Shown: positions 1-9,469 of the stretch, piece after piece
Numbering within the stretch: position 1 is the first letter of the stretch
Layout of the letters: each line of letters starts with the position of its first letter
Source: Promethearchaeota archaeon
GTDB taxonomy: Archaea > Asgardarchaeota > Lokiarchaeia > Sigynarchaeales > SOKP01
Direction: 5' to 3'
NCBI GenBank assembly: GCA_019894655.1
Contig: JAGXNZ010000012.1
Coordinates: 1 to 9,469, forward strand
DNA length: 9,469 bases
Position numbers and translations under genes: made by a program
Notes under the pieces: model-generated
Databases searched by the model: none
What the model was told of the DNA's origin: nothing
Seen by the model: only the letters and a program-made list of their open reading frames with translations

Positions 1-103
1 AAGATTAATAAGAAAATATCAACTTTTTCTAATTTCTTCAATTTAATCAGTTTTTTATATGTTAGATTTTGTTTTCGATTAGAATTCAATTATAATAATC
101 TAT

Positions 104-121
104 AGAAAATAGTAAAAATTG
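104..121 (-). terminator. Possible T-run terminator after the 143-958 gene
   Basis: Read on the minus strand, runs of five and four T lie about 25-40 bases beyond the TAA of the 143-958 gene. Archaeal transcription commonly ends at T-runs without a hairpin, and I see no hairpin here. The rest of 1-142 is very AT-rich and shows no coding signal. Because the whole stretch is low-complexity AT, this is only a weak call. Confidence 0.3.
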
Positions 122-142
122 TTTAAATTTTAAATTTATTAA

Positions 143-958
143 TTACATAAGGTTATGTTTCCAGTCATTCAACTTTGTATAGTATCTTGAAAACATAATG
201 TAGCAGATATCAGGCAATTCCTTGTCTAGGTTATTTAATGTGATATATCGGAGAATATGATTTATTAAAAATATCCCTAGAAATTCTATATGATAGCTAC
301 CAATTTTTTTAGAAAGTGCTTTACCTGAGTAATTTATGTCAAGATTGAAGTACTCATCGATTTCTAACTCAACAAATACTCCAGGAAATACTTCTTTTTT
401 AATTTGCCACTTTTCAGCTGTTTTCCACACTATAGCATCGAGAAACGTTGCTAAATCATTTATATCGTTCTCTTTTAATAAACTAAATGGCTCGGTTCTT
501 TGAATTAAAACCTTTTTCATTAAATCAGATTTTTTATCATAGGATTGTTCAAAGGGTTCTCTATTTTGAATCATTCTCTGCATAAAATCAAAGATTATAT
601 CAACATAAGTAATGCTATCTTCACCTGGGATTAAATGTGCTCTTTTACCTGAAAAATAGCATTTAAATTCTGCGGTAACGCCATCTCCAAATTCATCTCC
701 GAAATATGTAAAAGCTAGATGGATATTTACCTCTGGAAACATTTCTAATGTAATTGTCCAATCTTCGTTAAAACCTAAATTTTCGATTTTACCTCCAATA
801 TCCTCTGAAATTATCTTCTTAAGAGTTTCCATGTTGATATCGACGAAAAGTCGATGTTTTGCTTTGCTAACATCTTCTAATTCCTTAACATGGGGGCCAG
901 TTACCCCAGTACCATCAATTTGTCCAACGGTCCAAAATTTCCGTTTATCATCAACCAT
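143..958 (-). CDS. Hypothetical protein with apparent internal duplication
   Basis: I do not recognise this 271-residue protein. It has no signal peptide and no clear membrane helix, so it is probably cytoplasmic. Two segments resemble each other. The first starts at W67 (WTITLEMFPEV) and runs through FSGK at 102-105 to an aliphatic helix ending near MI at 129-130. The second starts at W184 (WQIKKEVFPGV), runs through YSGK at 210-213 and ends with a similar helix near 239. Shared features are W-x-I-x3-E-x-FP-x-V, then acidic/aromatic strands, then (F/Y)SGK, then a hydrophobic helix, which suggests two copies of one alpha/beta module. The ATG lies 11 bases after the TGA of the RNA methyltransferase gene on the same strand, so the two are probably co-transcribed. 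The ribosome site is weak (GGGCTGAT about 10 bases upstream). A role linked to RNA modification is guilt by association only. Confidence 0.85.
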   Translation of the reverse strand: MVDDKRKFWTVGQIDGTGVTGPHVKELEDVSKAKHRLFVDINMETLKKIISEDIGGKIENLGFNEDWTITLEMFPEVNIHLAFTYFGDEFGDGVTAEFKCYFSGKRAHLIPGEDSITYVDIIFDFMQRMIQNREPFEQSYDKKSDLMKKVLIQRTEPFSLLKENDINDLATFLDAIVWKTAEKWQIKKEVFPGVFVELEIDEYFNLDINYSGKALSKKIGSYHIEFLGIFLINHILRYITLNNLDKELPDICYIMFSRYYTKLNDWKHNLM

Positions 959-969
959 AATTAATATTA

Positions 970-2271
970 TCAGCCCTTTTTTTTGAATTTTCCTATGAAA
1001 AAACCTTGAGTTCCATGAATCGCTGGAAATAGTCTCCCTGTACCGGGAAAGGTTTGATTTTCAATTCTGTAACTTGGCGAGAACCACTCTGGGAGCTCTA
1101 ACGGTTCAAGTGTATCTATTATATTCTTAATCTGTAGTTCTCCTTCTTCGGGATATAAACTACATGTTGAATATACTAAGATACCCTCTGGTTTTAACAA
1201 ATTTAAGGCACTTTTAAGTAGCTTTTTTTGAAGAACCGTGTTTTGATGTAAAAACTTCTCGCTTTGTCTCCATTTTAACTCAGGATTATGTAGAAATGTT
1301 CCACTCCCGGTACAAGGAGCATCCAATAAGATCTTATCAAATTGATACTCATCTCTCACAGGAAACTGGATACCATCGGCATTTATTATGGGTATTTTAG
1401 GAGTATTCAAGTGTTTTAATAATTTTTTCATTGAGTTTGCCCTCTCTACATGAAAATCACTCGCTATAATTCTTGTTGCGTGTTTTGTCATTAAGTAAGT
1501 TTTAATGCCAGGCGCAGCACATAGATCGCCGATAATATCATGTGGTTTAGGATCTAAGACATCAATTACTGCCACCGAACCCTTATCAACTATTAGAATT
1601 TCTCCATTTTGATACAATTCAGAGCTTACTAATTCGCTCTTAAATTCTCTAGGCAGGGTATAGAGATGATCTATATTAGTATCTTTTTTAAATATTGACC
1701 TGTTTTTATTATCTAATTTTTGTAAATTACCAATAAAGCATAAGTTTAAGGTATTTTCTATTGAACTACTTACATGAACTGTAAAATAATTTGATTTCTT
1801 AATATCATTCATAGTCTCATGATTATCTTTTATTTGTTCAATAGACATAACCTGTGAAAGGCGTTCAATAAAGAAGCTTGGAATAGCTTTATTGAGACTT
1901 AATTTTTCGTTTTCTGTTTTGCCTTCTAATGCCCGTTTCCATGAAAATGTCTTTAATTTCTTAATAAAATCTAAAATTATAGGATATTTCAATGATATTT
2001 GATCCACTTCTAAATAAAGTTCTTCCTCTAAGATTCCTTCAAATTTCATTCTATAAGCCAAATAAAGCAAAATAGCGATTTGATGATTATTAAATTCCTT
2101 ATACTCCAGACTTCTCAATGTTTTTTTAATCATAAAGTTTAATTTATTCCAGAATCGAACGATTTCATTATAATAATAAATAATTTTAGAATTAGAACGA
2201 GTCTTCTCTGAAAGATTAGCTTTTTTTCTTTCTAAATACTGCTCTAATAAATCAATAATAACTGTATCCAT
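970..2271 (-). CDS. NOL1/NOP2/Sun-family RNA m5C methyltransferase
   Basis: This 433-residue protein is an S-adenosylmethionine-dependent RNA (cytosine-C5) methyltransferase of the RsmB/Trm4/NSUN family. The catalytic half carries the SAM-binding motif I GDLCAAPGIKT (248-258), an acidic motif II ASDFHVERA (270-278), motif IV DAPCTGSG (317-324) with C320, and motif VI VYSTCSLYPEE (366-376) with C370. In this family the motif VI cysteine attacks C6 of the target base and the motif IV cysteine helps release the product. The C-terminal GRLFPAIHGTQGFFIGKF (412-429) is the usual closing motif. The N-terminal ~220 residues are largely helical and resemble the NusB-like plus N1 arrangement of RsmB-type enzymes, without obvious strong motifs. 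Length fits the two-domain members. Whether the target is tRNA or rRNA cannot be read from the sequence. It is the first gene of a two-gene unit with the 143-958 gene. Confidence 0.95.
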   Translation of the reverse strand: MDTVIIDLLEQYLERKKANLSEKTRSNSKIIYYYNEIVRFWNKLNFMIKKTLRSLEYKEFNNHQIAILLYLAYRMKFEGILEEELYLEVDQISLKYPIILDFIKKLKTFSWKRALEGKTENEKLSLNKAIPSFFIERLSQVMSIEQIKDNHETMNDIKKSNYFTVHVSSSIENTLNLCFIGNLQKLDNKNRSIFKKDTNIDHLYTLPREFKSELVSSELYQNGEILIVDKGSVAVIDVLDPKPHDIIGDLCAAPGIKTYLMTKHATRIIASDFHVERANSMKKLLKHLNTPKIPIINADGIQFPVRDEYQFDKILLDAPCTGSGTFLHNPELKWRQSEKFLHQNTVLQKKLLKSALNLLKPEGILVYSTCSLYPEEGELQIKNIIDTLEPLELPEWFSPSYRIENQTFPGTGRLFPAIHGTQGFFIGKFKKKG

Positions 2272-2295
2272 ATCTCAAAAATTGGTCTAAAGATT

Positions 2296-2304
2296 GTATA
2301 TAAT
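2296..2304 (-). promoter_or_regulatory. TATA-box candidate for the RNA methyltransferase gene
   Basis: The minus strand reads ATTATATAC here. Its centre is about 29 bases upstream of the ATG at 2271. Archaeal transcription normally starts about 25-27 bases after the TATA centre, which puts the start within a few bases of the ATG. The bases before the ATG (TTTTGAGAT) contain no convincing Shine-Dalgarno site, which agrees with a leaderless mRNA. The surrounding sequence is AT-rich, so chance occurrence is possible. Confidence 0.45.
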
Positions 2305-2481
2305 AATAATAATGAATTAGCTCAGTATTGCTAAGATTTTTAATAGAGAGAATGCCCGTTTTTCGCTCAATAAATTTAATTAATAACTTAATTAAGACAT
2401 CTAATACTTTTTGATTGATGTTAGACACTCTCCAATAATATGTTTATTTCTAGAGCTTTAACTATCAATAATGTTTATGCT

Positions 2482-2511
2482 AAAAAAAAGAATAAGTATT
2501 TAGAAAAAAAA
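2482..2511 (-). terminator. Double T-run terminator after the membrane protein gene
   Basis: On the minus strand two separate runs of eight T follow the TAG of the 2523-5867 gene, the first beginning about 11 bases after the stop. This is the usual form of an intrinsic archaeal terminator, and no hairpin is needed or seen. It supports separate transcription of the membrane protein and the methyltransferase unit, which fits the TATA candidate further downstream. The remaining intergenic sequence (2305-2481) is AT-rich and includes the 10-base palindrome CTTAATTAAG at 2387-2396. I saw no other feature there. Confidence 0.55.
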
Positions 2512-2522
2512 TCGGAATTTAA

Positions 2523-5500
2523 CTACATTTTGATTGGTATTAAAATTCCTTTATTTTTTAAAGTAAGTATAGTGCTAATAATTTGGTCTCTCGATTCTTT
2601 TCTACCCGCAATCCCAAAACTAAGCAAGCTGGAAACAAAGAAAAACTTCCTCTCTTTTTGTATCTGTTCAGCAACCTCTATTAACGCCTTTTCTAGAGAA
2701 CTTAGTTTGAAGACATCTCGATAGGGAGCTAATTTCAAAGGATACATTAAGGTGATATTAAAATACTTCTCAATCAATGGATCTGTTTCTCTGAATGGCG
2801 TGAGATCACCGTCGAAGTTTTCTAAATAAGCTCTGAATTTAAATTCAAAATCGTTGGTAAAAGAGGATTGATTTTCTTTTAATTGATCAGAAGGAGATTT
2901 ATCTAATACTAAAGCGACACGAGCATAATCACCATCAGTAATAATAATTTTGAAATCATAGTAATCCATTTCGAAACCTTTAGATACCTGCTCTTTTTTT
3001 ACTCCTTTTTGAAATTCTTGACGGAACTGCGATATTGCTTGTAGAAATCCAGAAATTAAGTCTGAATCGATACCCTCAATGGCAATTTGTTTATTGAAAA
3101 TTGAAACTCCAACATCCTTATGGATGATCATGATGTAAGAGATATTCACTAAATCATTGAGAACCATAGCTTCCTTTGACCAGATTCTTCTCAACTTTTG
3201 ATTTTTCTGTCGTTTTATAGCAATGAAAATGAATAAACCTGCCAATATTGCTAGCATATAAGGTAATAATTGTAGGAATGTATCCATAAACAGGATAAAG
3301 TCATCAACAATTCTGATATTGATTGATTGTAGTTCAGAACTCACATAGATTCCTTCTTCGTTATAAATCGCTTTTATTGAATATTGTTCTCCAGTTTGGG
3401 AAAATTCAAGATTTGCTGTAGCTTTCCCTTCAGTATTAGTTGTAACTCTGGTTTCAAATGTTACTAACGAATCGTCTTGAAGTACTTGGAAAATTATATT
3501 CAAAGTTTCTAAGGGTCTTCCATCTCCACTAATAACTCTCACTGAAAAAGGGTGAGTTCCTATTTTATATTGGGCATCCGGGTTGTCAACAAAGCTAATC
3601 AGAACTTGAACCTTATATACTTCATATATTCCATTTACATCGAATTTAATGAAATTCCAAAGAGAAGTTATATTAAATTCAAAGAAACCTTGAGTAGGTG
3701 CTCCATTTTGTATATCTCCCTCCCAATAACCCTTTCCAGAGCCATTATTAGCAATTGCAGTTCCGAAATTTTGCATCATGATATCAGAAGGATTTAAATT
3801 ATTAGGATTTAAGCCGAAACCAATTTTCGAGGTTATATCTGATGTTACTGTATTTTGTATATGCAAATTGACTGTAAATTCATCTATCGAGACATTAAAG
3901 TTTTCGAAAGTTCCATTTCCTACGTACAAGAAACGCATTCTAATTGAATTGGCATCGCTATCGTTTATCAATTGGATCATTACCCAAGTATAAAGAGAGG
4001 GTAACCTTTCAGAAAGGGTAGTTTCTTCTTTAAACGCAAGAGATCTGTTGTCTTGAGATAATCGCAACCAGTCAAGTTCATTTTCTTCTGGAGAAAGAAA
4101 AGTATAATTTTCCTTACCTTTATAAATCTCTATAACTGCAAAATCTAAGTCATTAGGCAAAGTAATACTCACATTAGAACTAGTCCGAAGGTCCAATTGA
4201 GGTACATATGGATATGGATAAAGAGGTGGCACTTTTAGGCCAAAATTAAAACCCCAATCATAGAGATCAACATCCCAGAGTGATAAATCGATATCTTCAA
4301 GAATATTAAATTTAAATTCTATCGAAAGATTATTCGTATCCGCTTGCGCTCTAAAGAAAATGTCATCGTTTAATTTTAACGTATCTAAGTCTAATTCCCC
4401 CGTTATAGTACCATTCATTGCACCTTCATTTAATTCACTTGGGAATTCTAATTCTTGAATAAGGGGATCGTACAGCAATATAGTGTCGTTAAATAATAAT
4501 CTTTCACCAAAATTTGCTGTAAAAATATTGTAGGAGACATCAAATTGAGTGTTACCGTCATAGTTAAATTGAATTTCCATTGAATTATTATTCGAATAGT
4601 TAAGAAAGTGTTTAAGGAAAGCTATCTTCTCATCAGGTTCAAAGATTTTATAACTTAGCAATATTTCAGTTTCTTGTTTTATGTTAATTCTATCAGAAAG
4701 ATCGAACCATTGACCGCTACTATAATTCTTAATCAGTATTGACGCTTCATTGAGGTTTGCTAAATCATTTATGCTTGAAACTAAATAAAAATCAATACTG
4801 TTCAACAATCGATTATGCAAAAAAGCCCATGGAAATGGTCTGTCGTAAAACCAGTCAACTAGAGCCTCATCTAAAATACCAGATGATATATTGCGTATAT
4901 TAAATATCATTTCAATTGTCAAATTAGTTGTATCAGTCCTGCAAATATATGAATCGCTATCAAAACTTTCGAGAGATGTTAGATCCCCTGATATTGTTGT
5001 TCCATTAAACGGACCAATTATCTCTTTAACATTATTAATTGAAAAATTTTCTTTCCACACCTCATTATAAAACAGATATGTTTCTCCTTCTCCAACCTCA
5101 TCTATATCTCCTCCATCTGGATTAAAATAGAGAAATTTTGGTCCACCACCATAGGATTGATCATCAGGAGGGATTTTGATTCGAAAAGCAAACCAATATT
5201 TATCAATACCATTTACATCTGTATGGTACGTTTCTGAAACATTCAAGAACACCGCTCCCTGCTCAGAATTTAAAAAATCAAAATGTTCCCAATGAGCCGC
5301 CATATTAAGAGGATGCGGATTTGTGACTTGACCTAATGTTTCGTTATTAGGTGTACCATCAGGAGTACAATTAACAATGGCTATCTCCCAAGAATTTTCA
5401 TCTGTAAAGTTATATGTGTTAACAATATCTTGGATGAATATACTAATATTATTAACAAATTGACTTAATTGGACGGAAAATTTTTGATAAATATAGAGAG

Positions 5501-5867
5501 GACCTTCTTCAGTACTAGATAAAAATTGAGTAGGATCAACCTCAACTTCTTTTGTGTAATTCATTGCTGTAATGTTTTCAAAATACATTTTCGCATATGA
5601 AAGATTATAATTTGGAATGTAAACACTTGGCTGAATGTTTAAATTCGGTTGGTCACTACTAATCGAGCAATCTGAGCTTATACTTGTTAAATTGGTAAAA
5701 ATTTTTCCAGTTCTATTCACTGCCTGGATGTTTAAATTGTTCCTTAAATTTTGTGAATTGGAATTTCCCAACCTATCAAATTCGCTAATTAATAGAGCAA
5801 AGTTAGAGAGAGTAAGGAATGAAAAGACTAATATTACTAAAATATGTCCATTTCTAATGATTTTCAT
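2523..5867 (-). CDS. Single-pass membrane protein with duplicated ectodomain and cytoplasmic longin-like domain
   Basis: No named family was recognised for this protein of about 1114 residues. Counting from the ATG at 5867: residues 1-30 are a signal peptide or anchor (KIIR, then a hydrophobic core). Residues about 80-275 are rich in strands and aromatics and look like a jelly-roll/lectin-type module. Two related modules follow at about 285-453 and 482-668, each opening NGT-x3-G-(D/E)-L and continuing TNLTIEMIFNI or NNLSIEFKFNI. Residues about 750-853 look Ig-like, with a G-x-A-T-A-N-L turn. Residues 865-884 form a transmembrane helix followed by the basic stop-transfer KRQKNQKLRR. The cytoplasmic part (about 898-1050) has the beta-beta-alpha opening of longin/roadblock-like folds: ISYIMIIHKDVGVSIF, then DSDLISGFLQAISQF. 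A helical, possibly winged-helix tail ends the protein. By hand I count about 28 N-x-S/T sequons in the ectodomain and 3 in the cytoplasmic part. A TTG at 5882 would add five residues. ATG was preferred because GAGG sits 9 bases before it. Confidence 0.9.
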   Translation of the reverse strand: MKIIRNGHILVILVFSFLTLSNFALLISEFDRLGNSNSQNLRNNLNIQAVNRTGKIFTNLTSISSDCSISSDQPNLNIQPSVYIPNYNLSYAKMYFENITAMNYTKEVEVDPTQFLSSTEEGPLYIYQKFSVQLSQFVNNISIFIQDIVNTYNFTDENSWEIAIVNCTPDGTPNNETLGQVTNPHPLNMAAHWEHFDFLNSEQGAVFLNVSETYHTDVNGIDKYWFAFRIKIPPDDQSYGGGPKFLYFNPDGGDIDEVGEGETYLFYNEVWKENFSINNVKEIIGPFNGTTISGDLTSLESFDSDSYICRTDTTNLTIEMIFNIRNISSGILDEALVDWFYDRPFPWAFLHNRLLNSIDFYLVSSINDLANLNEASILIKNYSSGQWFDLSDRINIKQETEILLSYKIFEPDEKIAFLKHFLNYSNNNSMEIQFNYDGNTQFDVSYNIFTANFGERLLFNDTILLYDPLIQELEFPSELNEGAMNGTITGELDLDTLKLNDDIFFRAQADTNNLSIEFKFNILEDIDLSLWDVDLYDWGFNFGLKVPPLYPYPYVPQLDLRTSSNVSITLPNDLDFAVIEIYKGKENYTFLSPEENELDWLRLSQDNRSLAFKEETTLSERLPSLYTWVMIQLINDSDANSIRMRFLYVGNGTFENFNVSIDEFTVNLHIQNTVTSDITSKIGFGLNPNNLNPSDIMMQNFGTAIANNGSGKGYWEGDIQNGAPTQGFFEFNITSLWNFIKFDVNGIYEVYKVQVLISFVDNPDAQYKIGTHPFSVRVISGDGRPLETLNIIFQVLQDDSLVTFETRVTTNTEGKATANLEFSQTGEQYSIKAIYNEEGIYVSSELQSINIRIVDDFILFMDTFLQLLPYMLAILAGLFIFIAIKRQKNQKLRRIWSKEAMVLNDLVNISYIMIIHKDVGVSIFNKQIAIEGIDSDLISGFLQAISQFRQEFQKGVKKEQVSKGFEMDYYDFKIIITDGDYARVALVLDKSPSDQLKENQSSFTNDFEFKFRAYLENFDGDLTPFRETDPLIEKYFNITLMYPLKLAPYRDVFKLSSLEKALIEVAEQIQKERKFFFVSSLLSFGIAGRKESRDQIISTILTLKNKGILIPIKM

Positions 5868-5876
5868 TTTATGAAT

Positions 5877-5880
5877 CCTC
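5877..5880 (-). promoter_or_regulatory. Ribosome binding site deciding the ATG start at 5867
   Basis: The minus strand reads GAGG here, 9 bases before the ATG at 5867. The competing TTG start at 5882-5880 overlaps this motif and has no purine-rich site of its own, so the ATG is favoured. Confidence 0.55.
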
Positions 5881-5882
5881 AA

Positions 5883-6144
5883 TTGTGTAATAAAAAAAAT
5901 TTAAATTGAATAACAAATAACAAATTGAGCTTTTAAAATTTTATTTTCTATTTAAGTAGAATATTGACTTAATTGCTTCTTGTAGAGAGAAAAAAATTTG
6001 ATTAAATCGTAAAGATTACTCTATAAATCCATATGAAGAGTTGTTTTTATTTCTTTTTATTCAAACTTCTTATTAGAGAGCTTTTAAAGATATGAAATCT
6101 TAAATTAATCATCCTTAATTTTTAATAGACTTTAATTGATCAAA
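5883..6144. promoter_or_regulatory. Divergent promoter region with a repeated GAGCTTTTAAA motif
   Basis: This gap separates the membrane protein (minus) from the transporter (plus) and should hold both promoters. The 11-mer GAGCTTTTAAA occurs identically at 5927-5937 and 6078-6088. Each copy contains a near-palindromic TTTTAAA core that can serve as a TATA box in either direction. Placing starts about 26 bases downstream gives leaders of roughly 40 bases for the minus gene and 34 for the plus gene, long enough to contain the ribosome sites seen. A factor-B recognition element could not be assigned. The rest is AT-rich and shows no RNA gene or riboswitch that I can recognise. Confidence 0.4.
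6137..6141 (+). promoter_or_regulatory. TGATC ribosome binding site for the transporter gene
   Basis: TGATC followed by AAA precedes the ATG at 6145. TGATC is complementary to the GAUCA stretch next to the CCUCC at the 3' end of archaeal 16S rRNA. The same arrangement occurs before the flavoprotein gene (7829-7834). A TTG start at 6136 would lie inside the motif, so the ATG is preferred. Confidence 0.45.
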
Positions 6145-6900
6145 ATGTGGTTAGTACTTCTAATATGGGTTGTAGTTATCTTTGTTTCCACACTAGTAAT
6201 AAGCCAATATATGAAAATGCAAAAACGGGAAGATGTGGCAATCGCTTTTTACATTTTGTTCATTACAATGTCCCAGATTTTAGCCGTAAAAATTGGAGAC
6301 TTTAGCCTTGGAAGTTATCAGATCACAGCACCGGTCGCAGTTCTTATATTTCCTTTTACGTTTCAAATAACTGATATGGTTAATGAGAATTTTGGGCGAA
6401 AAAGAACCCATAGAATGATATTTATAGCATTTGTCACTCAAATTCTAATGGCAGTATTTATATGGTTTAGCATTGAAATACCTGGTGCTCCTTTTTGGGG
6501 GCTTAACTGGGGCAGTAATCCTACTGAAGCTCAAAATTTTTGGTTGAACTTTTTTGGATCGACTATCCGAATAACGATTGCTTCTTGGATTTCATTTATT
6601 ATAACGGAGAATTTAGATGCTGTTTTATTTGCAAAATTGAAAAAGCTTACTGGAGGGAAAAATCTATGGATAAGAAATATATTTAGCGACATTCCAACTC
6701 TCGCTTTAGATAGTCTAATTTTTGTTAGTATAGCATTTGGAGGTCTTTTAGACATTTGGCCAATAATTTGGGGTCAACTCTTAACAAAATGGTTCTTTGG
6801 AGTTATTGATACACCTTTTATGTATTTATCTCGTGGTATTATCAACGGAAAAATCAATATTCTAGGCAATTTATTTGGAAAACATGAAGAGAATAAATAA
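6145..6900 (+). CDS. VUT/YhhQ-family transporter, putative queuosine-precursor uptake
   Basis: This is a 251-residue integral membrane protein of the VUT (DUF165, YhhQ/QPTR, COG1738) family. Characterised bacterial members import queuosine precursors; related proteins are annotated as vitamin uptake transporters. Counting from the ATG: hydrophobic segments lie near 2-22, 31-51, 59-76, 90-112, 138-158 and 184-222. Family hallmarks are ITDMVNENFGRKR (75-87), RITIASWISF then ENLD (142-158), and LWIRNIFSDIP then LDSLIFVSIAFGG (174-200). Length is normal for the family. The six bases before the ATG (GATCAAA region) support this start over a TTG nine bases upstream. The gene stands alone on the plus strand and converges on the flavoprotein gene with only 36 bases between stop codons. 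In an archaeon the cargo could be a 7-deazaguanine feeding tRNA archaeosine or queuosine, but substrate cannot be read from sequence. Confidence 0.9.
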   Translation: MWLVLLIWVVVIFVSTLVISQYMKMQKREDVAIAFYILFITMSQILAVKIGDFSLGSYQITAPVAVLIFPFTFQITDMVNENFGRKRTHRMIFIAFVTQILMAVFIWFSIEIPGAPFWGLNWGSNPTEAQNFWLNFFGSTIRITIASWISFIITENLDAVLFAKLKKLTGGKNLWIRNIFSDIPTLALDSLIFVSIAFGGLLDIWPIIWGQLLTKWFFGVIDTPFMYLSRGIINGKINILGNLFGKHEENK

Positions 6901-6936
6901 ATCCGATTTATACTCATATCTGAATTAATTCATAAT

Positions 6937-7824
6937 CTAGCTATCCAACTTTATTTTATCTCCAGTAAAGCCCCAAGATTTTAGAATTTCTCCTGCTTCC
7001 TCCATCATTGATTCGATAAATTCATTAATAGAAGTCACACTTTTTTGATGCACTATAGCTGCTGATAATACATTAGTACTTTTAAACGCTCGATGGTATA
7101 ATTTACTGTGATAATCTTCAGAAAAAACATTCATTTTTAACCATTTTTCTTTTACTTCTTTAGAAGCAGGGCTTTCTTGAGTTGTAAGAATAGCTGATCC
7201 TAGACATACACCCTCTGCACCCATACCTAGAACCCCTACGAAACCTCGTGCATCACCAATTCCACCAGCGGCAATTATAGGTGTTTTCAATAGTCGTTTC
7301 GCCAATGTAATATTGATTAAAGTCGTATGCTGAAAAGGATTTTTAAATCCGGAAGCTTCCATTCCTATTAATGTAATGGCACTAGCTCCTGCTCTTTCTG
7401 CTGAGATCGCATGTTTGAGTAAAGGACACTTATGAAACCAGAAACAACCTGTTTCTCTTATTCTTTCTCCTAGATGAGTTGCTTGATACGCTGAGGTAGT
7501 AAAAACTTTTATTCCTTCGTCAATAGCAATTTCCAAATACTTTAAGTAATCTTCTTTGGATACATTGCTAAGAGGATCAAACGCGCTTACTCCTGGTGGT
7601 AAGACTGTCAAATTAACACCAAAAGGCTTATCTGTCAATTCTTTCATTTTTATAAGTTCTGACTTGAAATTACCGATTTTATAATTTAAACCAGTAATAA
7701 TCCCTAATCCTCCAGCGTTTGAGAATGAAGCTGCAAATTCTGTTCTCCCTAGCCCAGCAAAAGCTGCCATAATCAAAGGGTACTTAGTACCGGTCATTTT
7801 ATTGATAGAAGTTTTCCAAATCAT
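6937..7824 (-). CDS. Nitronate monooxygenase-like FMN flavoprotein lacking the usual histidine
   Basis: This 295-residue TIM-barrel flavoprotein belongs to the nitronate monooxygenase / 2-nitropropane dioxygenase / FabK-like superfamily. Residues 15-44 give the opening barrel strand and SNAGGLGIIT. Residues 146-162 hold AGASAITLIGMEASGF. The FMN-phosphate region is AAGGIGDARG (185-194) and GMGAEGVCLGS (200-210), followed by TTQESPAS and VKEKWL, which match the C-terminal pattern of the COG2070 group. Typical members read E-A/C-G-G/A-H-x-G where this protein reads EASGFKNP, so phenylalanine 160 occupies the place of the histidine regarded as the catalytic base in nitronate monooxygenases. The true reaction may therefore differ. 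The ATG has a good ribosome site and lies 12 bases after the amidohydrolase stop codon, implying one transcript. Family membership is secure; substrate is unknown. Confidence 0.92.
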   Translation of the reverse strand: MIWKTSINKMTGTKYPLIMAAFAGLGRTEFAASFSNAGGLGIITGLNYKIGNFKSELIKMKELTDKPFGVNLTVLPPGVSAFDPLSNVSKEDYLKYLEIAIDEGIKVFTTSAYQATHLGERIRETGCFWFHKCPLLKHAISAERAGASAITLIGMEASGFKNPFQHTTLINITLAKRLLKTPIIAAGGIGDARGFVGVLGMGAEGVCLGSAILTTQESPASKEVKEKWLKMNVFSEDYHSKLYHRAFKSTNVLSAAIVHQKSVTSINEFIESMMEEAGEILKSWGFTGDKIKLDS

Positions 7825-7828
7825 TTTT

Positions 7829-7834
7829 GATCAC
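7829..7834 (-). promoter_or_regulatory. GTGATC ribosome binding site for the flavoprotein gene
   Basis: The minus strand reads GTGATC, four bases (AAAA) before the ATG at 7824. It matches the GGTGATC part of the archaeal anti-Shine-Dalgarno complement and lies between the stop of the upstream gene and this start. It supports translational coupling within a two-gene transcript. Confidence 0.6.
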
Positions 7835-7836
7835 TA

Positions 7837-8691
7837 CTAAATTTTTAAAATTTTGGCAGCGTTTAACCCCATAATTCTCTTTTTAAATCCTTCTGAAATA
7901 GGTAAATTTTGTGCAGCGGGTATAATTTTATTCCAATGAACTAACGGATGATCAGATCCAAATAGTATCTTATGTTCAATGTTGTATTTTACATAAGCAT
8001 CCCAAGGAAAATATGGGTAAAGATCTGGATGGGCAGAAATGTCAGCATATACATTTGGATGCCTTAATACTACAGAATATGTGTCCCAGAACCAAGGGAC
8101 TCCCATGTGCCCAATTATAATAGTTAGATCTTCATTTCGCATTGCCATTTCATCTATGAGCAAAGGATGGCCATATTTTGCTATAGCTCCTCCAGTGCTT
8201 TCGTGATGTCCACCATGTGTCCATAAAGGTATACTATTGTCAACCATTTTTCGCCATAATGGGTCGTATTTCTTATCAGAAATGTCAAATTTCTGAGCAG
8301 AAGGGAGAATTTTAATACCTTTTAAACCAAGAGAGAAGATCGCGTAATCTAACTGTTCTATAGCATCTGGCGCAGGGGGGTCTATACCTGCAAATCCAAT
8401 TAACTTATTTGGATGCATTTTTACAAGATTAGCTATATCATCGTTAGTCACAAGAGTTATTCCATAAGCAGTCTTGATATTAAAACTCACAATTACTGAT
8501 TTATCAATTCCAAATTTATCCATTAAAACAATGTAATTATTAATTGAGATGTTTTCCTTCAAGTTTTTAAAAGCTTTGTACATGTATTTTTCTTTGTGAG
8601 GATCTAATCCGTACATTGCTTTACAGATTTTTTTGGGATCATCCCAACTAACTTCTTTACATAACGGATGTACATGCATGTCTATAATCAA
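7837..8691 (-). CDS. Amidohydrolase-family metalloenzyme (ACMSD / amidohydrolase-2 type)
   Basis: This 284-residue protein is a TIM-barrel metal-dependent hydrolase or decarboxylase of the amidohydrolase-2 (PF04909) type, related to ACMSD and gamma-resorcylate decarboxylase. Metal-site residues are visible: H6 and H8 (DMHVHP) on strand 1, H159 (WTHGG), H195 (IIGHMG) and D247 (FGSDHP) on the last strand. KGIKILPS (124-131) is the usual mid-barrel strand and lacks a bridging carboxylated lysine signature, suggesting a single metal ion. The start is TTG: it gives the family-typical N-terminus MIIDMHVHP, it has GAGGGG eight bases upstream, and an in-frame TAA lies seven codons further up. An ATG at 8679 would begin right at the metal motif. 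The gene is followed after 12 bases by the flavoprotein gene. The substrate is unknown; hydrolysis and non-oxidative decarboxylation are both possible. Confidence 0.92.
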   Translation of the reverse strand: MIIDMHVHPLCKEVSWDDPKKICKAMYGLDPHKEKYMYKAFKNLKENISINNYIVLMDKFGIDKSVIVSFNIKTAYGITLVTNDDIANLVKMHPNKLIGFAGIDPPAPDAIEQLDYAIFSLGLKGIKILPSAQKFDISDKKYDPLWRKMVDNSIPLWTHGGHHESTGGAIAKYGHPLLIDEMAMRNEDLTIIIGHMGVPWFWDTYSVVLRHPNVYADISAHPDLYPYFPWDAYVKYNIEHKILFGSDHPLVHWNKIIPAAQNLPISEGFKKRIMGLNAAKILKI

Positions 8692-8699
8692 TCTTTTTA

Positions 8700-8705
8700 C
8701 CCCTC
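8700..8705 (-). promoter_or_regulatory. Ribosome binding site supporting the TTG start at 8691
   Basis: The minus strand reads GAGGGG, eight bases before the TTG at 8691. It is the only purine-rich site near the start and favours the TTG over the internal ATG at 8679, which would lie 20 bases away. The rest of the 77-base gap (8706-8768) is AT-rich and probably holds a promoter. AATTAAAG around 8735 would be a fitting TATA position, but this is weak. Confidence 0.5.
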
Positions 8706-8768
8706 TCGATTAATCTTAAACTGATAGATTAGTTGAACTTTAATTTTCACATAAAGAAATAAGAGAAT

Positions 8769-9469
8769 TTATAAAAAATTATCTATAGTTCTCTGATTTT
8801 TGATAAAATTAATTAGTTTGCTGCTCTGTTTCCAGTATTTGTAGTTTACCATGAATCCTTCCGCCATTTTTTTTGTTGAATCGTTGAAATTGTCAAGGAT
8901 TAGAGGATTTCCTTTCTCCATCGCATCTTTAACAGTCTCGCGGATGACCCACACACCCAATGGAACTATGTAGCCGCCACGTACTTCCCGAAAAATTAAA
9001 ACCCTAGCTTGTCTTCCAATTTTATATAAATACTCGCAAACCTCTTTTCTGGCAGCATAATAAGCACCGGTAATATTGCTCGCATAAGTTTTTCTACCCT
9101 TATAAAATTCATAATCAGTCATTATTTGAGGTTTTAAGTTACGGTTGTCTCCATTGAGAGAAATATTCCATAGCGTATTAGGAGCCCAAACCTCGTTCAT
9201 TTCGTATGTAAATTTACCGGGAAAGAGAAGAATTTTAAAATGATTGTCAAGGTAAGTGTTTTCAAAGATTTGATAATTATCAATTTCTGGAAAATTTTTA
9301 ATTTCTTTAATAAGCGCTTTAGATATAATATCATCAACAGCTGTAATACTCCATCGTGTTGGAACAATTCTACGCCTTGCTTTTAAGCCCAGTAACCCTG
9401 CTGAAAATACTCTCTTGATCGTAGATTCTGGAACTTGACCTTTAAAGTAGAGATATTTTGATACTGCTT
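8769..9469 (-). CDS. nreA: DNA repair protein NreA, C-terminal 232 residues (5' end outside window)
   Basis: The frame stays open from the right edge of the window to the TAA at 8769, giving 232 residues. NreA is an archaeal DNA-repair factor. In Haloferax it acts with UvrABC on mitomycin-C damage and depends on PCNA contact. Recognisable NreA sequence includes GLLGLKARRRIVPTRW then SITAVDD, which begins about 25 residues in from the edge. Later come YLDNHF, the Nre_C region FYKGRKTYASNITGAYYAAR, and YIVPLGVWVIRE. The Met at 9200 is internal: conserved sequence continues upstream without a stop. The last eight residues, QRTIDNFL, fit the PIP-box consensus Q-x-x-(I/L/M)-x-x-(F/Y)-(aromatic/L). 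Full-length homologues are about 400 residues, so roughly the N-terminal 40 per cent, where a zinc-binding motif is usually found, lies beyond the window. The amidohydrolase gene follows after 77 bases on the same strand. Confidence 0.95.
   Translation of the reverse strand, partial: AVSKYLYFKGQVPESTIKRVFSAGLLGLKARRRIVPTRWSITAVDDIISKALIKEIKNFPEIDNYQIFENTYLDNHFKILLFPGKFTYEMNEVWAPNTLWNISLNGDNRNLKPQIMTDYEFYKGRKTYASNITGAYYAARKEVCEYLYKIGRQARVLIFREVRGGYIVPLGVWVIRETVKDAMEKGNPLILDNFNDSTKKMAEGFMVNYKYWKQSSKLINFIKNQRTIDNFL

Follow-up and report, generated by a model that had tools for sequence, protein, structure and literature searches.

A receptor-like surface protein of a Lokiarchaeon and its multi-paralogue family with a predicted longin-type cytoplasmic tail

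The 9,469-nucleotide stretch of DNA analysed here (the window; contig JAGXNZ010000012.1, positions 1 to 9,469) encodes a Lokiarchaeal surface protein that is single-pass, of type I and receptor-like by architecture. Sequence comparison assigns it to a multi-paralogue family in which a common longin tail is joined to differing ectodomains. The gene lies at 2523..5867 on the minus strand, as do all features of the window given below, and encodes 1114 amino acids (aa) from an ATG at 5867 to a stop codon at 2523-2525; a TTG 15 nt further upstream is an alternative start, for a product of 1119 aa. We favour, at a probability of about 45%, a receptor that presents its longin domain as a platform to a small GTPase, over a sorting receptor, a PAS/GAF-like relay or an inert anchor.

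Two regions of the protein rise above the hydropathy threshold: the N terminus (best stretch 9-27) and residues 856-887 (best stretch 864-882). The first corresponds to a signal peptide region (residues 1-30, 5778..5867; helix 5-31 in the model) and the second to a transmembrane helix (residues ~862-884, 3216..3284) followed by the basic stop-transfer sequence KRQKNQKLRR. This leaves ~830 residues outside the cell and ~230 in the cytoplasm. In an alignment of the window protein and 63 relatives, chosen by us from 120 listed proteins, the N-terminal hydrophobic segment is found in 54 of 64 proteins and the transmembrane segment at the same position in 59; four have some other segment. The original prediction, made from the DNA sequence alone, had described this reading frame as a signal peptide, about 835 extracellular residues, one transmembrane helix with a basic stop-transfer and a soluble tail of about 230 residues; hydropathy, the alignment and the structure models agree with it.

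The ectodomain is rich in potential N-glycosylation sites, in line with the glycosylatable ectodomain that had been proposed: it contains 28 N-X-S/T sequons, compared with 12.4 +/- 3.0 in shuffles of the same ectodomain, which rules out a chance origin of these sites. Over the 64 proteins, sequon density is 3.26 per 100 aa in ectodomains and 0.57 in tails. In all 59 aligned proteins with a detected transmembrane segment, the tail side of the membrane carries the more positive net charge, and 17 of 17 receptor-like proteins of the wider family follow the same rule. Because of this charge bias and the sequon contrast, the tail is most likely cytoplasmic; a tail outside the cell, which would have counted against the original prediction, is rejected. 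The computed architecture is thus that of a type I single-pass membrane protein, with a signal peptide, a glycosylatable ectodomain, one positive-inside transmembrane helix and a folded cytoplasmic tail.

Structure prediction and structure comparison support a longin fold for the tail. After a juxtamembrane helix (residues 886-908, 3144..3212; helix 2-24 of the tail model), the longin domain (residues 909-1040, 2748..3143) is modelled as beta1 (909-916), beta2 (922-927) and alpha1 (935-952), then beta3-5, alpha2 and alpha3. This is the order beta-beta-alpha-beta-beta-beta-alpha-alpha, with a five-stranded sheet. Residues ~907-1040 match longin and roadblock folds in Foldseek and VIA, and in the full-length model as well. 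The beta-beta-alpha start and longin/roadblock-like fold that had been read from the sequence are therefore borne out, and a different fold for the tail is rejected on the same prediction and comparison. MglB and other Roadblock/LC7 proteins, including Roadblock3 of MK-D1 (9jue), differ from the tail: MglB is soluble, and although the tail model has the N-terminal helix 2-24, its sheet is followed by two C-terminal helices (110-132 and 139-152), as in longins. The roadblock fold has one (PMC10933270; this and the other papers are cited from excerpts).

Pfam scans of the window tail match no curated longin profile; among 15 paralogues, two are touched below the cut-off (Fuz_longin_1, 4.6e-4; Sybindin, 0.008). 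No Pfam family is found in more than one of 15 tails (best Cor1, 7.3e-4) or more than one of 24 (best APAF-1-like_WHD, 5.6e-4). A search of solved structures with the single tail sequence gives no match, and with tail alignments it gives chance-level rows alone (TrwK, E 0.37; an acyltransferase, E 0.43). The longin match stops short of the last ~75 residues, which the tail model folds into a small helical domain of their own (residues 1041-1114, 2526..2747), possibly winged-helix-like by the order of its elements. Its profile finds only designed helical repeats (0.0071-0.049) and JukB (0.55), none convincing, and no consistent Pfam family. Winged-helix models touch the soluble paralogue L084 at 7e-4 to 0.003, but at residues 198-239, past the matched module.

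SNARE longins and small subunits of AP/COPI are among the structure matches (VIA, Foldseek), which would suit a role in sorting. Trafficking or ESCRT/adaptin-like machinery would read the longin tail and so position the surface protein or bring it back, as with longin and small adaptin-subunit folds in eukaryotes, and there would be no ligand-to-GTPase signalling. The order of parts argues against this: longin SNAREs have an N-terminal longin, a SNARE motif and a C-terminal transmembrane segment, whereas here the transmembrane helix (~862-884) precedes the longin domain (909-1040). The eukaryotic trafficking longins (Sec22b, VAMP7, Ykt6, Synbindin, Fuzzy) are 6-12% identical to the window tail, which also differs in standing C-terminal to a transmembrane helix and ectodomain and in its added N-terminal helix and C-terminal helical domain. 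Asgard proteins tied to ESCRT do combine Vps28-C, adaptin appendage, longin, Ig-like, TPR and HTH/PCI domains, several of them domain types that overlap with those of the window family (PMC10936438). They are tied to Vps28-C or SB domains, and the term signal peptide is absent from that paper; Pfam scans of the window proteins and paralogues find no Vps28 or adaptin domain. In addition, the two cultured Lokis have no observed internal membrane compartments (PMC10933270). We consider sorting unlikely.

The original prediction had asked whether the same architecture occurs in other Asgard genomes, and the family proves wider than it proposed. A protein search gives 142 relatives, and the named organisms among the 120 listed are Asgard archaea or marine sediment metagenome; the same is true of the matches listed in further protein database searches, which were limited by length and shared words. 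A further 14 matching loci, orthologous and up to 84% identical, come from genomes whose titles name Lokiarchaeota or Lokiarchaeia; both results bear out an Asgard origin. In six Loki genomes picked for bearing orthologues, the tail profile has 12 to 21 matches per genome at E <= 0.01, a few of them with stops or at contig ends. Across the phylum, 213 of 227 genomes have a tail-profile match at 1e-4, and in 22 of the 227 the best match reaches the level of an orthologue (<=1e-90).

Forty stretches around tail matches, picked by us from strong and weak matches, contain 42 module-bearing open reading frames (ORFs). Going by the hydropathy table, we count 19 with a transmembrane segment just before the module, 10 that are polytopic (one incomplete) and 13 that look soluble. 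The 19 comprise 15 with an N-terminal segment as well, two that run off the contig and two without; three of the 19 have extra, weaker hydrophobic segments. Seventeen of them (two close orthologues were excluded) were compared pairwise with each other and the window protein at E <= 1e-3. Tails match in 152 of 153 pairs and ectodomains in 53, with the reservation that the pairs are not independent, some of the 17 being orthologues of each other across genomes. The window tail matches all 17 and the window ectodomain three. Ectodomains span ~340 to 2350 residues, and in the 64-protein alignment the tail is better conserved than the ectodomain. A conserved intracellular module with a changing outside is the anatomy of a receptor family. 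In a tree of 40 modules (43 less three short ones), modules with the same label, be it single-pass, soluble or polytopic, group together, with six changes compared with a shuffled mean of 17.2; its deep forks are weak and do not settle the number of fusions.

The paralogues show further variations. L099:2241-11333, L090:5725-12507, L069:1-2475 and L105:5485-10650 are receptor-like and continue for ~200-400 residues past the module, with helical TPR-like repeats by eye. In L103:5323-7473 (+), FG-GAP (integrin-alpha-like) repeats (Pfam 3.4e-11) precede the longin module, and no transmembrane segment rises above threshold. L073, L086 and L096 encode polytopic proteins of ~550 aa with 10-11 transmembrane segments and a C-terminal module; there are two adjacent copies in L086 and in L096. 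By eye, 14 of 17 receptor-like paralogues have P-[KR]-[KR] shortly after the transmembrane segment, often preceded by [YH]R; the window's orthologue group does not have it. In L097:5774-7654 (+), six transmembrane segments are followed by a remote longin-like module and then HisKA and HATPase_c, so that a longin-type domain stands in a relay position.

A relay of the PAS/GAF kind would have the module dimerise and transmit a conformational change or bind a small molecule; outputs would vary by protein and small GTPases would be uninvolved. The L097 protein and the 10 polytopic ORFs fit this, and longins have been counted within the PAS/GAF superfamily (PMC4917890). However, the histidine-kinase copy is a remote family member (27.6 bits), and the solved folds among the tail matches are longin and roadblock, not PAS or GAF. 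This reading is slightly less probable again than sorting.

The ectodomain has a beta-rich domain D1 (residues 55-285, 5013..5705), a tandem duplication and a beta-rich domain D4 (residues 676-752, 3612..3842; full-length model); the boundaries of D1 and D4 were set by us. The duplicated copies are D2 (residues 286-480, 4428..5012) and D3 (residues 484-675, 3843..4418), which match in profile-profile comparison at E 3.3e-24. A membrane-proximal Ig-like domain of the Big_1 or macroglobulin MG4-like type follows (residues 753-854, 3306..3611). Complement and Nitrosopumilus S-layer chains among the Foldseek rows of the full-length model, at very low template-modelling scores (TM-scores; query-normalised ~0.05-0.10), and the numerous surface proteins that Lokiarchaeum ossiferum shows in place of an ordered S-layer (PMC9834061) would suit an adhesin or envelope protein whose tail merely anchors or spaces, but this is improbable, as a tail that only anchored would hardly be expected to surpass the ectodomain in conservation or to be common to ectodomains that mostly do not match.

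In the favoured reading, a receptor acting on a small GTPase, we go beyond the computed architecture and fold and infer a ligand, a dimer and a GTPase partner. The ectodomain would bind a ligand, a partner-cell glycan or a surface protein, and binding outside would alter how the receptors pair or cluster. The tails would pair like longin or roadblock domains and offer a dimer face to an Arf/Rag/Rab-like small GTPase, which would be switched or recruited under the membrane; the C-terminal helical domain may be a further docking site. A coupling of external binding to small GTPases or trafficking had the same conjectural standing in the original prediction.

Gene neighbourhood is consistent with a GTPase partner. 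Downstream of the receptor gene, the window encodes an rRNA methyltransferase of the RsmB/RsmF type (970..2271; Pfam PF01189, 3e-46) and a conserved 271-aa protein with no assigned function (143..958; DUF3786 only at E 0.056). These neighbours are kept in 12 and 13 of the 14 orthologous loci. In these orthologous loci, beyond the 271-aa ORF and convergent with it, are a gene for a 184-aa protein (13/14) and one for an Arf-family GTPase (12/14), which starts 1.5-6.3 kb past the receptor gene. Of the two loci missing the GTPase, L009 ends before the gene position and L012 is without the block. In L001:10974-14076 (-), the gene for the 184-aa protein overlaps that for the GTPase, next to a DUF2070 membrane protein; of the 14 orthologous loci, 13 retain the first, 12 the GTPase and 9 the membrane protein. 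The 184-aa protein looked like a longin with a winged helix, but kinship with the receptor tail is not claimed (profile comparison E 0.17; Pfam only HTH_27, 0.025, and Mor, 0.05).

The nearby small GTPase genes that the original prediction had proposed to look for are thus found in 12 of 14 orthologous loci, but they are weakly informative. Ras and Arf models match 51-91 and 52-91 times per Loki genome, counts that are upper bounds as the models also match in 12 and 8 of 14 control genomes; GTPase-like ORFs by our motif pattern also occur in some other fetched loci. Because such matches are so frequent and a housekeeping gene is in the same block, the nearness of the GTPase gene is only suggestive.

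Several points weigh against a GTPase platform. The L001 GTPase gene is convergent and three genes away, and the block also keeps the rRNA methyltransferase, so the genes may have stayed together passively. No end of a gene for the 184-aa protein lies in the window's first 142 bases, which therefore give no evidence of the pair in this organism. In MK-D1, GTPase genes are generally outside the operons of their presumed regulators (PMC10933270). Foldseek scores are modest (best E 1.9e-4; TM-score by target 0.22-0.70), and the tail is less confident in the full-length model, with a predicted local distance difference test score below 50 at 944-963. A GTPase role is also not evident for those paralogues that are polytopic or, in one case, have the module between transmembrane helices and a histidine kinase. 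Finally, the residues invariant over 24 rows (L, G and A; model 53, 56 and 60 of helix 51-68) are in the first half of the central helix, and in roadblock proteins its C-terminal half mediates dimerisation (PMC10933270). We lowered our confidence in the platform because of these residues and the matches of the Ras and Arf models in control genomes.

The first composite genome of Lokiarchaeota has 41 longin-like domains, five of them fused to Arf-like GTPases (PMC4917890), and longin domains are enriched in Lokiarchaeum ossiferum (PMC9834061). Roadblock-Longin 8yqg is another known Lokiarchaeal relative of this kind. The fusions described in the excerpts are with GTPases and TRAPPC3, and none is of a receptor-like protein that spans the membrane (PMC4917890, PMC10933270); the present family may include some of those 41 domains. 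Searches of an open-licence library, which does not cover subscription literature, gave no description of longin-tailed type I surface proteins. To our knowledge, no eukaryotic or bacterial counterpart of a longin-tailed surface receptor controlling small GTPases has been described.

Lokiarchaea are relatives of the archaea from which complex cells arose, and complex cells use longin-type modules to control membrane traffic and small GTPase switches. What provides input to the eukaryote-like small GTPases and longin/roadblock domains of Asgard archaea is unclear; a surface family with a longin cytoplasmic end is a concrete candidate, and may account for part of the longin expansion. A bolder and rather doubtful proposal is that Asgard archaea hold a large class of surface receptors, many per genome, whose varied ectodomains share a longin tail that would directly control Arf/Rag/Rab-like small GTPases upon binding outside, a one-protein link older than eukaryotes. 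The family bears on how contact with partner cells may have been coupled to the control of membranes and cytoskeleton before eukaryotes arose.
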